64,000 nt of DNA from Dyadobacter arcticus (GTDB taxonomy: Bacteria; Bacteroidota; Bacteroidia; Cytophagales; Spirosomataceae). Made by a program: the position numbers and the translations under genes. Below the pieces are notes generated by a model. The model was not told the DNA's origin. It ran no database searches and worked only from the letters and a program-made list of their open reading frames with translations. This document shows, piece after piece, positions 46,835 through 51,390 of the stretch. The stretch's first letter is position 1. Each line of letters starts with the position of its first letter. The stretch lies in the NCBI RefSeq assembly GCF_011762185.1, contig NZ_JAASQJ010000005.1, positions 124,001-188,000 on the forward strand, read 5' to 3'.

Positions 46835-47464
46835 TTATTGGTGACGGCTACGAAGTACGTCAATTACCTCGTCTAAGTCAATGTTTTTTTGTTCCAGAAG
46901 GATCAAAAGGTGGAACAATAAATCCGAAACTTCATTCTTAAAAAGGTCACTATCATCGTCTTTTGCCTCAATCACTACCTCCACCGCTTCTTCACCAACC
47001 TTCTGCGCAATCTTGTTAATTCCCTTCTGAAAAAGGCTGCTGGTATACGATTCTTCGGTAGGATTTAATTTTCTTTCCCTGATCACTTTTTTCTGAAGGT
47101 AATTGAGAAAATCGGCTTCCCCGATCCGCGCATGCTGACTATTTTTTTCCCCAAAACATGTATCTGCTCCCGTATGGCATACAGGGCCTGCCGGTGTGGC
47201 TTTAATGAGCACTGTATCACCATCGCAATCGGCAATTATCTCGTTTACAAAAAGAAAGTTGCCGGAAGTTTCACCCTTGGTCCAAAGCCGCTGTTTGCTC
47301 CTGCTGAAAAAAGTAACGGTTCCCTCTTTTTTTGTTCTTTCCAATGCCTCAGAATTCATATAGCCCAGCATCAGCACCTTATCTGTATGCAGGTCCTGGA
47401 CAATTACTGGTACAAGCCCGTCGGCCGATTTGTCAAAATCAATGGTTGAATAGGTTTCGCTCAT
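46835..47464 (-). CDS. hisIE: Bifunctional phosphoribosyl-AMP cyclohydrolase/phosphoribosyl-ATP pyrophosphatase
   Basis: A 209-residue fusion for steps 2 and 3 of histidine biosynthesis. The HisI half (about 1-115) carries VLMLGYMNSEAL, FFSRSKQRLWTKGETSGN, the metal-binding DCDGD and CHTGADTCF. The HisE half (about 120-209) carries YTSSLFQKGINKIAQKVGEEAVEVVIEAKDDD and LLFHLLILL. The fusion is common in Bacteroidota. It lies 42 bases after hisF in the hisH-A-F-IE order. Confidence 0.95.
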   Translation of the reverse strand: MSETYSTIDFDKSADGLVPVIVQDLHTDKVLMLGYMNSEALERTKKEGTVTFFSRSKQRLWTKGETSGNFLFVNEIIADCDGDTVLIKATPAGPVCHTGADTCFGEKNSQHARIGEADFLNYLQKKVIRERKLNPTEESYTSSLFQKGINKIAQKVGEEAVEVVIEAKDDDSDLFKNEVSDLLFHLLILLEQKNIDLDEVIDVLRSRHQ

Positions 47465-47506: not shown

Positions 47507-48280
47507 CTATCGGGTCATCCGGATCGGCAAATCTTTATAATTAAGGAATGCTTTCAAATCAGGTATATCAATTTCCCTAAAATGGAAAATGCTGGCTGCT
47601 AACCCTGCATCGGCTTTTCCGGTGGTAAAAACGTTATAGAAATGTTCCATGGTACCTGCACCACCCGATGCGATCACCGGGATACTTGCATTTCCAGAGA
47701 TGGTTGCAGTCAGTTCAAGCGCAAAGCCGCTTTTCGTACCATCCGTGTCCATAGATGTAAGTAATATTTCCCCTGCACCGCGTTCTTCCACCTCTTTTGC
47801 CCAGGGTATTGTTCGAATTTCGGTGGGTTTCCAGCCCCCATGTGTGTGCACGACATGTTCCTGACTGTTCTCCGTTGCAATGTAACGCGTATCGATCGCT
47901 ACAACAATGCATTGGCTGCCAAATTCAAGCGCAAGCTCATTGATCAGGTCCGGATTTCTTACAGCCGCCGAATTGATGGAAACTTTGTCCGCACCGGCAA
48001 GAAGCAATGCAGAAACATCAGCAATGGACGAAATTCCGCCTCCTACCGTAAACGGAATATTAACCGTTTGCGCCACTCGCCGAACAAGGTCAATAAAGGT
48101 TGAACGACCGTCAATTGTCGCAGTGATATCTAAATAAACCAGCTCGTCCGCTCCCTGAGCAGCATACAATGCGCCCAGCTCCACTGCATCGCCTGCATCT
48201 CTGAGATTCACAAAATTGACTCCTTTCACAGTCCTGCCATCTTTTACATCCAGACAGGGGATGATTCGTTTTGTGAGCAT
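47507..48280 (-). CDS. hisF: Imidazole glycerol phosphate synthase subunit HisF
   Basis: A 257-residue TIM-barrel cyclase that with HisH makes IGP and AICAR. Catalytic Asp11 is in [18 protein letters not shown]; the second catalytic Asp is in [15 protein letters not shown]. Phosphate-binding loops are VGGGIS and [13 protein letters not shown]. It starts 3 bases after hisA, consistent with operon coupling. Confidence 0.97.
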
Positions 48281-48283
48281 ATC

Positions 48284-49006
48284 CTAAGCAGAAAAACGCT
48301 GTAATTCGGCGAGGGTGATCCTGCTTTCGTAGATCGCCTTGCCAATAATCACACCATAAATGTTCATTTCAGCCAGTTTTTCTACGTCTTTCATCCCACT
48401 GATCCCTCCGCTGGCAATAATTTTCAGGTCAGGGCACTTATCCTGAATATTTTTATAAAGATCAAATGAGGGTCCCTTAAGAAGCCCGTCCTTGGCAACA
48501 TCTGTACTGATCGTATATTTTACGCCTTTTTCAACATACTCTTCAACAAAATCATAAACCCAAATCTGCGTCCCTTCTTCCCAGCCACTTACTGCTATCT
48601 TTTCATTTTTTGCGTCAGCGCCCAGAATGATTTTTTCGCCGCCATAAACTTCAAGCCAGTTTTGAAAAATCTCCGGCTGCTTCACCGCTACACTCCCGCC
48701 CGTCACCTGTTTTGCGCCACTTTCAAAAACCGTCCGCAGGTCATCATCGGACTGTACCCCACCTCCAAAATCAATGTGCAGGGAAGTTTTTGAAGCGATT
48801 TTTTCCAATACCTTCCAATTAATCACTTTTTTGGCCTTAGCCCCATCTAGATCCACCAGATGCAATCTTTTCAATCCCGCATCTTCAAATTCCAATGCTA
48901 CTTCCAGCGGGTCTTCGTTGTAGATTATTTTCTTGCCATAATCTCCCTGAGTCAGCCGGACACACTTTCCGTCGATCATATCAATGGCTGGTATTATTTC
49001 AATCAT
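48284..49006 (-). CDS. hisA: ProFAR isomerase HisA
   Basis: A 240-residue TIM barrel that isomerises ProFAR to PRFAR. The N-terminal IIPAIDMIDGKCVRLTQGDY holds the first catalytic Asp and the second is in YTISTDVAKDG. Glycine-rich phosphate sites are DFGGGVQSDD and IIASGGISGMKD. It lies 20 bases after hisH. Confidence 0.97.
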   Translation of the reverse strand: MIEIIPAIDMIDGKCVRLTQGDYGKKIIYNEDPLEVALEFEDAGLKRLHLVDLDGAKAKKVINWKVLEKIASKTSLHIDFGGGVQSDDDLRTVFESGAKQVTGGSVAVKQPEIFQNWLEVYGGEKIILGADAKNEKIAVSGWEEGTQIWVYDFVEEYVEKGVKYTISTDVAKDGLLKGPSFDLYKNIQDKCPDLKIIASGGISGMKDVEKLAEMNIYGVIIGKAIYESRITLAELQRFSA

Positions 49007-49026: not shown

Positions 49027-49614
49027 TCAGATTTTCAAAAAGTTTTCAATGATTTTTTGCCCCACATCCCCGCTGATTTCGCAATGGAACTGGGCTGCGT
49101 AAAAATTACCTTTTTGCAACATGGCGCTGAAAGGCATTACATATTCGCAAATCGCTACCGTATAATCACAAACGGGCGGCGCAAAGCTATGCACAAAGTA
49201 TACAAACGCATTGTCGGGTACACCGTAAGTGAGCGCGGACTTGTAATTGGAAATGTTGTTCCAACCCATATGCGGTACTTTCAGATTGGTATCGGAAGGA
49301 AAACGTTTTACGTCTACGTCGAAAATGCCCATGCATTCGGTACTGTTTTCTTCTGAAAACCGGCACATCAGCTGCATTCCGACGCAGGTACCAAAAACGG
49401 GCTGTTTTAATGTTGGTATCACTTTATCTAATCCTACTTTCCGCAAATAATTCATGGTCGTGCTCGCTTCACCCACGCCCGGGAAAATCACTTTGTCGGC
49501 AGACCTTATCTCAGCCTCATCGTCCGTATACAGGTATCCCGCGCCAATGCGGTCCAGCGCGTACATCACCGACTGTACATTACCTGCATTGTATTTGATA
49601 ATTACGGTTTTCAT
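49027..49614 (-). CDS. hisH: Imidazole glycerol phosphate synthase glutaminase HisH
   Basis: A 195-residue class I glutaminase that supplies ammonia to HisF. The nucleophile Cys is in FGTCVGMQLM (about residue 79) and the His-Glu pair in AAQFHCEIS near the C-terminus. The start at 49614 (MKTVIIKYNAGN) matches the usual length; an in-frame ATG at 49635 would add 7 residues. It is the first structural gene after the His-rich leader and attenuator. Confidence 0.96.
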   Translation of the reverse strand: MKTVIIKYNAGNVQSVMYALDRIGAGYLYTDDEAEIRSADKVIFPGVGEASTTMNYLRKVGLDKVIPTLKQPVFGTCVGMQLMCRFSEENSTECMGIFDVDVKRFPSDTNLKVPHMGWNNISNYKSALTYGVPDNAFVYFVHSFAPPVCDYTVAICEYVMPFSAMLQKGNFYAAQFHCEISGDVGQKIIENFLKI

Positions 49615-49637
49615 TGAAATGTGATATTGAGGCACAA

Positions 49638-49670
49638 ATAAAAAAAGCCCGATTCAAAAAAATCGGGCTT
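49638..49670 (-). terminator. his attenuator terminator
   Basis: On the minus strand the arms AAGCCCGATT and AATCGGGCTT (49645-49654 with 49661-49670) form a perfect 10-bp stem with a 6-base loop, then a T-run. It lies between the His-rich leader peptide and hisH, as expected for a leader-peptide attenuator. A stretch GGCTTT at the end of the leader frame (49743-49748) could pair with GAAGCC of the terminator as an alternative structure. Confidence 0.8.
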
Positions 49671-49720
49671 CTGGGATACTATGTATTCAACCTTATTACA
49701 ACACTACTTGCAAAAACATA

Positions 49721-49786
49721 TCATCCAAGACGTCCGAAAGCCAGATGGCAATGATGATATTGATGATATGTTTCAGCTTTAAACAT
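49721..49786 (-). CDS. Histidine-rich leader peptide of the his operon
   Basis: A 21-residue frame from the ATG at 49786 to a TGA at 49721. It contains YHQYHHCH, four His codons (CAT) within seven codons. It lies 51 bases before a Rho-independent terminator that precedes hisH-hisA-hisF-hisIE. This is the layout of classical his leader peptides: when charged tRNA-His is scarce the ribosome stalls and the terminator is avoided. The codons lie in the right place and all genes downstream are for histidine synthesis, so the case is strong. The ATG starts 5 bases after the last G of the -7 box (likely leaderless). Confidence 0.85.
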   Translation of the reverse strand: MFKAETYHQYHHCHLAFGRLG

Positions 49787-49790
49787 GGAA

Positions 49791-49798
49791 CAAATGTA
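49791..49798 (-). promoter_or_regulatory. -7 promoter element of the his leader
   Basis: CAAATGTA on the plus strand, read as TACATTTG on the minus strand. The leader-peptide ATG follows after 4 bases. No clear -33 element at normal spacing. Confidence 0.6.
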
Positions 49799-49899
49799 AG
49801 CAAAAATTACAAATGAAGGATAGCCTCCTTGTAAATATTACATTAAAATTTGCTTAGAAAATTCTTGTACATTGCGATCGTAAACAGGCATTGCGACGC

Positions 49900-51390
49900 A
49901 TGAGACCATTCATTTCACAATTATTCTTTACAATCATTACCTTGACCACCATTGAATCCCAGGCGCAGTCCGAAGAAATGGCCCGCCGGCTTTTTGATAA
50001 ACACGCAACTTACCGGGAAGCTTCCCTAACCCAACGCCGGTTCAAACAAAAGGACATTCTTCCGTTGATTTCAAAGCGCCAGGACAATCCGCTTTATACC
50101 ATTGAAAAAGTTGGTGAGTCGTTTGAGGGCCGGTCAATTCAGATGATCAAAGTAGGCTCGGGAAAGAAAAAGGTGTTGTTATGGAGTCAAATGCATGGTG
50201 ACGAACCTACCGCCACAATGGCCAGCTTCGATATTTTCAACTTTCTGGAAGGAAAAAATGATGGCTTCGACAGCTTCCGCAAAGATCTGCTTGAAAATAC
50301 GACCTTATACTTTGTCCCTATGCTCAATCCAGACGGTGCCGAACGCTACCAGCGACGGACAGCACAGGGTGTGGATATGAACCGCGATGCGGCATCCAGG
50401 CAAACACCTGAGGCTGTGATACTAAAAGAATTGGTGGATAAATTAAAACCTGATTTTGGTTTCAATCTGCATGACCAAAGCCCACGATATTCGGCGGGCC
50501 GCAGTCCGAAAGTTGCCACGATTTCGTTTCTGGCAACTTCCTATGATTATGAGCTTTCCATCAACAAAGTGCGCGAACGCTCCATGCAGCTGATCGTTGG
50601 AATGAATAACATTCTCCAAAAGTACATTCCAGGCCAGGTGGCCCGATATGCGGATGATCATGAACCGCGAGGCTTTGGTGATAATGTTCAAAAATGGGGT
50701 ACAACGCTCGTCTTGATCGAATCGGGAGGCTATGTGGGCGATCCGGAGAAACAATACATCCGCCAGCTAAACTTTATGGCCATCTTATCAGCATTAGGTA
50801 AGATTTCCGACAATTCGCTGACCAAGGAAAACCGGGAGGATTACTATAAAATTCCCGAAAACGGAAGGTGGGTTTACGATCTTGTCGTCCGCAATGCTAC
50901 CGTAAGACAGGCCGGCAAATCATTCACGGCCGATTTGGGCATCAATCGCAATGAGGTAAGCTATTCCAATGCCACCAAATTCTTTTATTACAGTAAAATA
51001 GAGGATTTTGGTGACCTGCATCCGCAATATGGAAGCCAGGAAGTGGATGCAGCGGGATTAACCATTGAAAAAGGGAAAGTATATCCAACCACCTACAAGA
51101 ACGTCAGCGAAATCAGCAAACTCAATGTGCTGAACCTTTTGAAAGACGGTTATACGTATATACGGCTGAGCGCTGATTCAAATACCCGTGCCCTGGGGCT
51201 TTACTTTACAACATCCCCATTGCATATCCTCCGCGCTGGGCAGGCGTCTCCGTCGGGTACGCCCGGATTGGGTAGCACCGCAACATTCATTCTTAAAAAG
51301 GCTGGCAAAGTTAAATATGCGGTAATTAACGGCTTCGTGCACGATCTGGACAATTTTACAGCTGAGAAAGGACAAGGTATTGTGGAATAA
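49900..51390 (+). CDS. M14-family zinc carboxypeptidase, secreted
   Basis: A 496-residue exported peptidase. Signal peptide (to ESQAQ). The M14 site is visible: LLWSQMHGDEPTATM (first His and Glu, about residue 107), NPDGAERYQRRTAQGVDMNRDA, GFNLHDQSP (third zinc His) and LVLIESGGY (catalytic Glu, about 285). The C-terminal ~190 residues are beta-rich and of unknown role. It may cleave peptides or peptidoglycan fragments. ATG at 49900 preferred to the TTG at 49891. Confidence 0.88.
   Translation: MRPFISQLFFTIITLTTIESQAQSEEMARRLFDKHATYREASLTQRRFKQKDILPLISKRQDNPLYTIEKVGESFEGRSIQMIKVGSGKKKVLLWSQMHGDEPTATMASFDIFNFLEGKNDGFDSFRKDLLENTTLYFVPMLNPDGAERYQRRTAQGVDMNRDAASRQTPEAVILKELVDKLKPDFGFNLHDQSPRYSAGRSPKVATISFLATSYDYELSINKVRERSMQLIVGMNNILQKYIPGQVARYADDHEPRGFGDNVQKWGTTLVLIESGGYVGDPEKQYIRQLNFMAILSALGKISDNSLTKENREDYYKIPENGRWVYDLVVRNATVRQAGKSFTADLGINRNEVSYSNATKFFYYSKIEDFGDLHPQYGSQEVDAAGLTIEKGKVYPTTYKNVSEISKLNVLNLLKDGYTYIRLSADSNTRALGLYFTTSPLHILRAGQASPSGTPGLGSTATFILKKAGKVKYAVINGFVHDLDNFTAEKGQGIVE

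Follow-up and report, generated by a model that had tools for sequence, protein, structure and literature searches.

Attenuation at a leader peptide needs the first ribosome to load and to keep up with RNA polymerase, and the his leader of E. coli carries a run of seven His. Proteobacterial hisL elements (RF00514, His_leader) combine a His-rich short ORF, alternative 1:2, 2:3 and 3:4 pairings and an intrinsic terminator with his genes downstream. Candidates in Bacteroidetes/Chlorobi are reportedly mentioned in an abstract of 2004; and leaderless polycysteine short ORFs are said, by the title of a 2020 report, to attenuate an operon in mycobacteria, these being like the leader described here as leaderless attenuator ORFs rich in one amino acid and different in the amino acid (cysteine) and the host. 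His attenuators of Firmicutes with a His leader peptide, a terminator and an antiterminator, likewise unmatched by RF00514, are described in passages of PMC9413887, which place the known RNA attenuators in Proteobacteria; they belong to another phylum and to other operons, and those passages make no leaderless claim. For Bacteroidota, main-text passages on Flavobacterium psychrophilum (PMC9723704) give clues for leader-peptide attenuation before amino-acid operons and describe a conserved structured 5' element of hisG without Rfam hits. That element is alike in its phylum, in belonging to an amino-acid operon, in the short-peptide attenuation proposed for it and in the lack of an Rfam hit; it differs in preceding hisG and in carrying no leaderless claim in those passages. 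The main text of PMC8305728, on Bacteroidota his genes, does not contain the word 'leader' and mentions attenuation once, in general terms. Ribosome-mediated attenuation itself is known and its leader-peptide form has already been proposed for Bacteroidota (passages of PMC9723704); the leaderless form is unusual, and no title or abstract listed in searches of open-access papers for leaderless attenuators or his leaders in Bacteroidetes/Bacteroidota describes such an arrangement.

The locus lies in a window (the whole stretch of DNA analysed) of 64,000 nucleotides from Dyadobacter arcticus, where a leader ORF, a terminator and hisH-hisA-hisF-hisIE are all on the minus strand (Table 1). A sequence-only reading of this DNA had called a histidine attenuator from a 21-residue frame with four His in seven codons, a 10-bp terminator with a T-run and the four genes downstream. 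Translation bore out the frame (His at residues 8, 11, 12 and 14), Pfam domains confirmed the genes and their order, and folding recovered the terminator and T-run with a stem of 13 bp, not 10. The pairing of GGCTTT with GAAGCC, also suggested there, is present but forms only the outer part of a longer antiterminator with the core GGATGATATGT/ACATAGTATCC; and while the attenuator reading as such is supported, the promoter placement that makes the ORF probably leaderless was absent from it. The 161-nt leader-terminator RNA folded to -43.6 kcal/mol (z -3.49), with 1 of 200 shuffles equally low. A short ORF with four His in seven codons arose in 29 of 10,000 dinucleotide shuffles of the intergenic region, and one that also had an ATG start with TAnnTTTG 3-5 nt upstream in 0 of 10,000.

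Table 1. Elements of the his leader region and the genes behind it (positions in the window).
Feature	Position	Strand	Basis or remark
-7 promoter box, TACATTTG	49791..49798	-	fits Bacteroidota consensus TAnnTTTG; ends 4 nt 5' of leader ATG
Predicted transcription start, A of leader ATG	49786	-	from position of -7 box
Leader ORF, 21 codons, encodes MFKAETYHQYHHCHLAFGRLG	49721..49786	-	sequence and translation
Leader His codons	49765-49763, 49756-49754, 49753-49751, 49747-49745	-	translation
Leader stop, TGA	49723-49721	-	sequence
Segment 1 (ACATATCATC), inside Thr-Tyr-His codons	49762..49771	-	partner of segment 2 without leader translation
GGCTTT within leader codons, outer antiterminator strand	49737..49742	-	complementarity
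Segment 2 (GGATGATATGT), across leader stop codon	49716..49726	-	partner of either segment 1 or segment 3
43-nt invariant stretch	49676..49718	-	identical in 38 distinct Dyadobacter leader sequences (48 genomes)
Segment 3, ACATAGTATCC (49684-49674) plus GAAGCC (49671-49666)	49666..49684	-	complementarity
Intrinsic terminator, 13-bp stem, 4-nt loop, T-run	49638..49673 (hairpin 49673-49644)	-	folding
hisH (ATG at 49614)	49027..49614	-	Pfam GATase
hisA	48284..49006	-	Pfam His_biosynth
hisF	47507..48280	-	Pfam His_biosynth
hisIE	46835..47464	-	Pfam PRA-CH and PRA-PH

Compared with hisL, the Dyadobacter leader has interrupted His codons, precedes hisH and not hisG, and is predicted to be leaderless. 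Against RF00514 the region scored 24.8 bits (E 0.089), under the 49-bit gathering cut-off, and this was the best of the 16 matches listed for positions 49400-50100 up to E 10, with no T-box or riboswitch among them. The independence from the usual leaders that had been proposed for this locus holds for its sequence; it does not extend to novelty in the phylum, since the class has many His-rich leaders, most of them upstream of hisG, and since leader-peptide attenuation at amino-acid operons and a conserved hisG 5' element had been put forward earlier (passages of PMC9723704).

The TAnnTTTG box of F. psychrophilum is placed at -12 to -5 relative to +1 (passages of PMC9723704). In the window TACATTTG is followed by four bases and then by ATG, a spacing which, read against the Flavobacterium position, would put +1 on the A of the ATG; the leader mRNA probably starts at, or within about one base of, its AUG, which would make this a leaderless attenuator. 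The spacer measured 4 nt in 40, 3 nt in seven and 5 nt in one of the 48 Dyadobacter loci described below; 4 nt in 29 and 5 nt in one of 30 loci from the rest of the family; and 4 nt in 52, 3 nt in four and 5 nt in two of 58 loci from named genomes, where the scan also allowed 2 and 6-8 nt and returned none. A box near the ATG was required for the leader counts (48/48, 30/40 and 58/80); separate listings without this requirement also show the box before the leaders, including those of all 48 Dyadobacter hisH loci. Bacteroidota are described as having no Shine-Dalgarno sequences, with mapped leaderless mRNAs at a few per cent (passages of PMC9723704 and PMC7366714). A census of TAnnTTTG-N3-4-ATG in the D. 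arcticus genome gave 191 sites against 140 for the reversed pattern, so that an estimated 0.1% of its ATGs carry such a box, with 140 of the 191 matched by the reversed control; it was rejected as a leader finder for this noise. Thirty of the census sites were inspected and held no His leader, some lying before real genes (hemE-like and ribD-like, by eye).

hisH was present in all 48 Dyadobacter genomes and the leader upstream of all 48 main hisH loci, with the His codons, terminator and frame retained as the sequence-only reading would have it. Second hisH-like genes in two of the genomes (L049 and L050, 40-41% identity) have no leader and were excluded from the 48. Among the 38 distinct leader sequences His codon 11 never changes, and 36 also have His at codon 8, the exceptions, L047 and L048, having Pro there and two His only; codons 18, 19 and 21 show only synonymous changes and codon 20 one L-to-I change. 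Synonymous changes are thus present in the conserved frame, an excess of which had been named as support for the attenuator. The peptide ends in G-R-[LI]-G in every Dyadobacter leader except L047, which has a stop after codon 16. In L047 segments 2 and 3 are intact despite this early stop, as if the RNA rather than the peptide end were selected. The Gly-Arg-Leu-Gly-stop stretch (window 49721-49735), kept in Dyadobacter with synonymous third-base changes, might slow termination at the stop codon. Another Dyadobacter genome (G032) has about six tandem 101-bp units, each including the hisH 3' end (L026:2017-2628).

hisH was found in 215 of the 222 genomes of the family, and 40 hisH upstream regions from 25 genera other than Dyadobacter were sampled for a leader, defined by at least two His and a box 2-7 nt from the ATG; 30 of the 40 had one, spread over 18 genera, and none of these 30 leaders had the GRLG ending. 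In three of the ten regions without a leader (L051, L052 and L082) the contig runs out within 170 nt; hisH follows directly on a lumazine synthase-like gene in L089 and L090 and lies about 150 nt after one in L068 (all by eye); L075 has a terminator-like hairpin only; and the leader scan found none before hisH in L087 and L088. L056, in a draft genome assigned to genus g28, has no leader ORF: its -7 box abuts the terminator hairpin.

Conservation beyond the genus was also seen in the named loci returned, 58 of 80 carrying the leader (Dyadobacter, Telluribacter, Rhabdobacter, Arsenicibacter, Spirosoma, Fibrisoma, Rudanella, Larkinella, Siphonobacter, Flectobacillus, Fibrivirga, Pseudarcicella and some drafts, including two records titled Flavobacterium and Cellulophaga); the Dyadobacter, family and named sets overlap in genomes. 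The 44 distinct peptides of the named set contain 21.6% His, and the peptides diverge across genera while His richness, terminator and promoter distance persist. The remaining 22 named loci, including six Runella, Emticicia, two Arcicella drafts, one Larkinella, two Spirosoma drafts and several unclassified Cytophagales, had no upstream frame with three His in eight codons, two of them offering less than 250 nt of DNA. Upstream of hisH in L298 and L305, a transposase-like frame (ending NPVKAGL..., of REP-associated type by eye) occupies the position of the leader in related Spirosoma and Larkinella. No leaderless His leader was found in 30 hisH regions from ten other families of the order, or in nine further hisH regions from six genera of the same family; some in these two groups hold frames with at least three His, without a box and chance-like. 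In 22 of the 30 other-family regions a frame of at least 120 codons ends within 250 nt upstream, so hisH there appears as if inside an operon.

In Dyadobacter segment 2 is able to pair with either segment 1 or segment 3 (10 of 11 positions of the 2:3 core pair), and GGCTTT with GAAGCC, which lies inside the terminator 5' arm. RNAalifold returned the 2:3 antiterminator helix from the 38 distinct sequences, with an inner hairpin UUGCAA/UUGUAA. A terminator-like hairpin was found 3' of the leader in all 78 leaders scanned, and in all 78 the predicted sequestration of the terminator 5' arm was greater with a ribosome stalled at His than with one at the stop codon, the footprint being set at 12 nt beyond the first base of the A-site codon; the alternative structures thus behave in prediction as attenuation needs, in keeping with the earlier call. 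More opened RNA tends to permit more pairing, and shuffles were therefore used as the null (60 for each of 26 hand-chosen representatives): the mean difference in sequestration was 0.363 against 0.051 for shuffles, with 25/26 above their own null mean, the observed value being averaged over all His codons and the null taken at the first His codon, which leaves more RNA open. For the window sequence by itself the switch was not better than shuffles, 19/60 reaching the observed difference. Leaders of other genera have different partner sequences, one instance (by eye) being GGCAGAAC 3' of the stop codon and GTTCTGCC within the terminator, and the same predicted behaviour.

Covariation of the antiterminator in Dyadobacter and near relatives, with 97.0% of cells paired, showed no excess over shuffles, and within the genus no pair had changed on both sides; segments 1:2 had one pair with a double change (41/500 shuffles as high) and were broken at one position in 9/38 Dyadobacter sequences. 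Within the genus such tests are uninformative because the helices hardly vary. Sequence and folding place a terminator between the first gene and a leader ORF rich in the cognate codon, and folding, at the family level, predicts an antiterminator that is incompatible with the terminator and promoted by a stalled ribosome.

All 38 distinct Dyadobacter sequences share an unbroken run of 43 identical bases, which takes in the tail of segment 2, the antiterminator loop with its inner hairpin and the greater part of segment 3. When 30 of the genomes were aligned over a span reaching from 200 nt upstream of hisH to about 2.1 kb past its start, the next longest invariant run was 10 bases, where alignment errors downstream of hisH could break such runs; hisH in the same alignment has 79.4% mean nucleotide identity and 11/194 invariant third positions. 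Each of the 48 Dyadobacter genomes has a single perfect copy of the core 18-mer GTAATAAGGTTGAATACA, at the leader locus; the 18-mer is also present in genera g6, g23, g30 and g35, and with one mismatch in g27. Pairing accounts for segments 2 and 3, and perhaps for the inner hairpin, but not for the rest of the loop; that the element is a pause signal or a factor-binding site would be a guess.

We propose, at a probability of roughly 0.87, that this locus is a ribosome-mediated transcription attenuator sensing charged histidyl-tRNA and built on a leaderless mRNA, as judged from sequence and modelled structure. RNA polymerase would start at the leader AUG or no more than about one base from it. 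When histidine suffices, a translating ribosome would reach the stop codon and cover segment 2, the terminator would form and transcription would end before hisH; when histidine is short, the ribosome would wait on the His codons and cover segment 1, leaving segment 2 to pair with segment 3 (GGAUGAUAUGU/ACAUAGUAUCC together with GGCUUU/GAAGCC), so that the terminator would be blocked and hisH-hisA-hisF-hisIE transcribed by readthrough. If the leader were not translated at all, segments 1 and 2 would pair and the terminator would again form.

The same attenuator might instead have an ordinary short 5' UTR, its start further upstream and its initiation not leaderless. Leaderless mRNAs are rare, at about 5.5% of mapped mRNAs in F. 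psychrophilum (passages of PMC9723704), and in B. thetaiotaomicron 5' UTRs shorter than 10 nt make up about 3.7% (passages of PMC7366714); other leaders, moreover, have longer box-to-ATG spacers (27-38 nt for trp and mostly 7-19 nt for hisG, below). Against this, most of the clade has the box of this locus at -12 to -5 relative to the ATG, the position mapped in Flavobacterium, despite divergent peptides, and spacers of 2 and 6-8 nt were permitted in the named loci and never found; we consider an ordinary UTR unlikely. That a short ORF should stand by chance before an unrelated terminator can scarcely be believed, common as short ORFs are, given the shuffles (29/10,000 for the ORF and 0/10,000 with the promoter) and the conservation of the arrangement in many genera.

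The 43 invariant bases bear on two further explanations. One is that the terminated leader RNA or its peptide also acts in trans, as a small RNA or peptide regulator, which would explain both these bases and the constant GRLG ending in Dyadobacter; the core 18-mer, however, occurring once per Dyadobacter genome and at the leader, fits a role in cis while being compatible with one in trans, and none of the 30 leaders from other genera has the GRLG ending, so that we give this additional role only a slim chance. The other, which we regard as very improbable, is that the structure senses histidine or a protein directly, as a riboswitch or protein-dependent antiterminator to which the ORF is incidental: the antiterminator loop is conserved far beyond the apparent need of an ordinary attenuator, but the His codons are kept while the remaining peptide diverges, other genera retain the predicted switch with quite a different linker, and the 16 Rfam matches listed include no riboswitch or T-box.

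Other amino-acid operons of the genus were compared with the his attenuator. Upstream of Dyadobacter trpE, 7/7 loci had a short ORF containing WW or WWW, together with a strong terminator-like hairpin (MKALNTIWWWRARLKRMDE in the D. arcticus genome, L147 on contig C9; the others being L142-L146 and L148), about 210-225 nt before the matched trpE domain and with a box 27-38 nt 5' of the leader ATG. Before ilvD an Ile/Leu/Val-rich short ORF with a terminator hairpin was likewise present in 7/7 loci (L156 on contig C1 of the D. arcticus genome, where the start codon is GTG, L151-L155 and L157), and no TAnnTTTG lay within 45 nt before the start in these seven. A palindrome, AGCGAAATTTCGCT, lies between a TAnTTTG site and the leader at the ilvD loci, with one base different in L157; it is perhaps an operator. 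Leaderless leaders were sought at trpE, ilvD and the hisG of the genus and discarded, none having TAnnTTTG 2-8 nt before an ATG. With leaders in 7/7 loci at both trpE and ilvD, attenuation seems general; of the operons examined, only his appears to use the leaderless form.

A wider proposal, which we hold only tentatively and think more doubtful than probable, is that much of the family runs its His attenuation leaderless, with promoter, start codon and sensor fused and no ribosome-binding region, while its trp and ilv attenuators are ordinary, and that the 43-nt element of Dyadobacter binds a factor or programmes a polymerase pause which keeps the leaderless-initiating ribosome in step. The locus would offer a natural system in which to study how Bacteroidota initiate on leaderless mRNAs and couple transcription to translation, and the ordinary trp and ilv attenuators of the same genome could serve as controls; the near-fixed distance from promoter to AUG across genera gives a sequence rule for finding similar switches, and the invariant element is an unexplained constraint open to experiment.

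In the D. arcticus genome hisG follows hisS, and neither hisG, the first step of the pathway, nor hisS has a His leader; hisS upstream regions read in four genomes held no frame with three His in eight codons within 700 nt, and hisG in 16 Dyadobacter genomes had no box-linked short ORF, a three-His frame at one of them (L133) being set aside as chance-like. Of 28 genomes picked from the family, 27 had hisG and 26 loci were readable: Fibrisoma (G114) has a hisG leader with the identical 4-nt spacing, the Runella-type genomes G160 and G163 have a His5 frame before hisG without that spacing, and three more loci have His-containing frames that are chance-like. For the Bacteroidia, 31 hisG loci were counted (28 came from a class sample of 60 genomes, 29 of which had hisG, and three came from the order; the D. 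arcticus locus L131 and one fragment, L230, were left out). A His-rich short ORF preceded 26/31 and was accompanied by a terminator in 21/31, against 2/31 and 0/31 on the reverse strand and 21/310 and 1/310 in shuffles; the spacer from box to ATG in these hisG leaders of other Bacteroidia was mostly 7-19 nt. The attenuator seems to be an old device of the Bacteroidia, which either remained with the hisH operon or was transferred to it as the his genes became separated and which, we infer, became leaderless in this family. Elsewhere in the D. arcticus genome, outside the window, genes for an Xre/MbcA/ParS antitoxin and a RES-domain toxin lie between hisD-like and hisC-like genes of the second his cluster (L231:4918-5801, contig C3).
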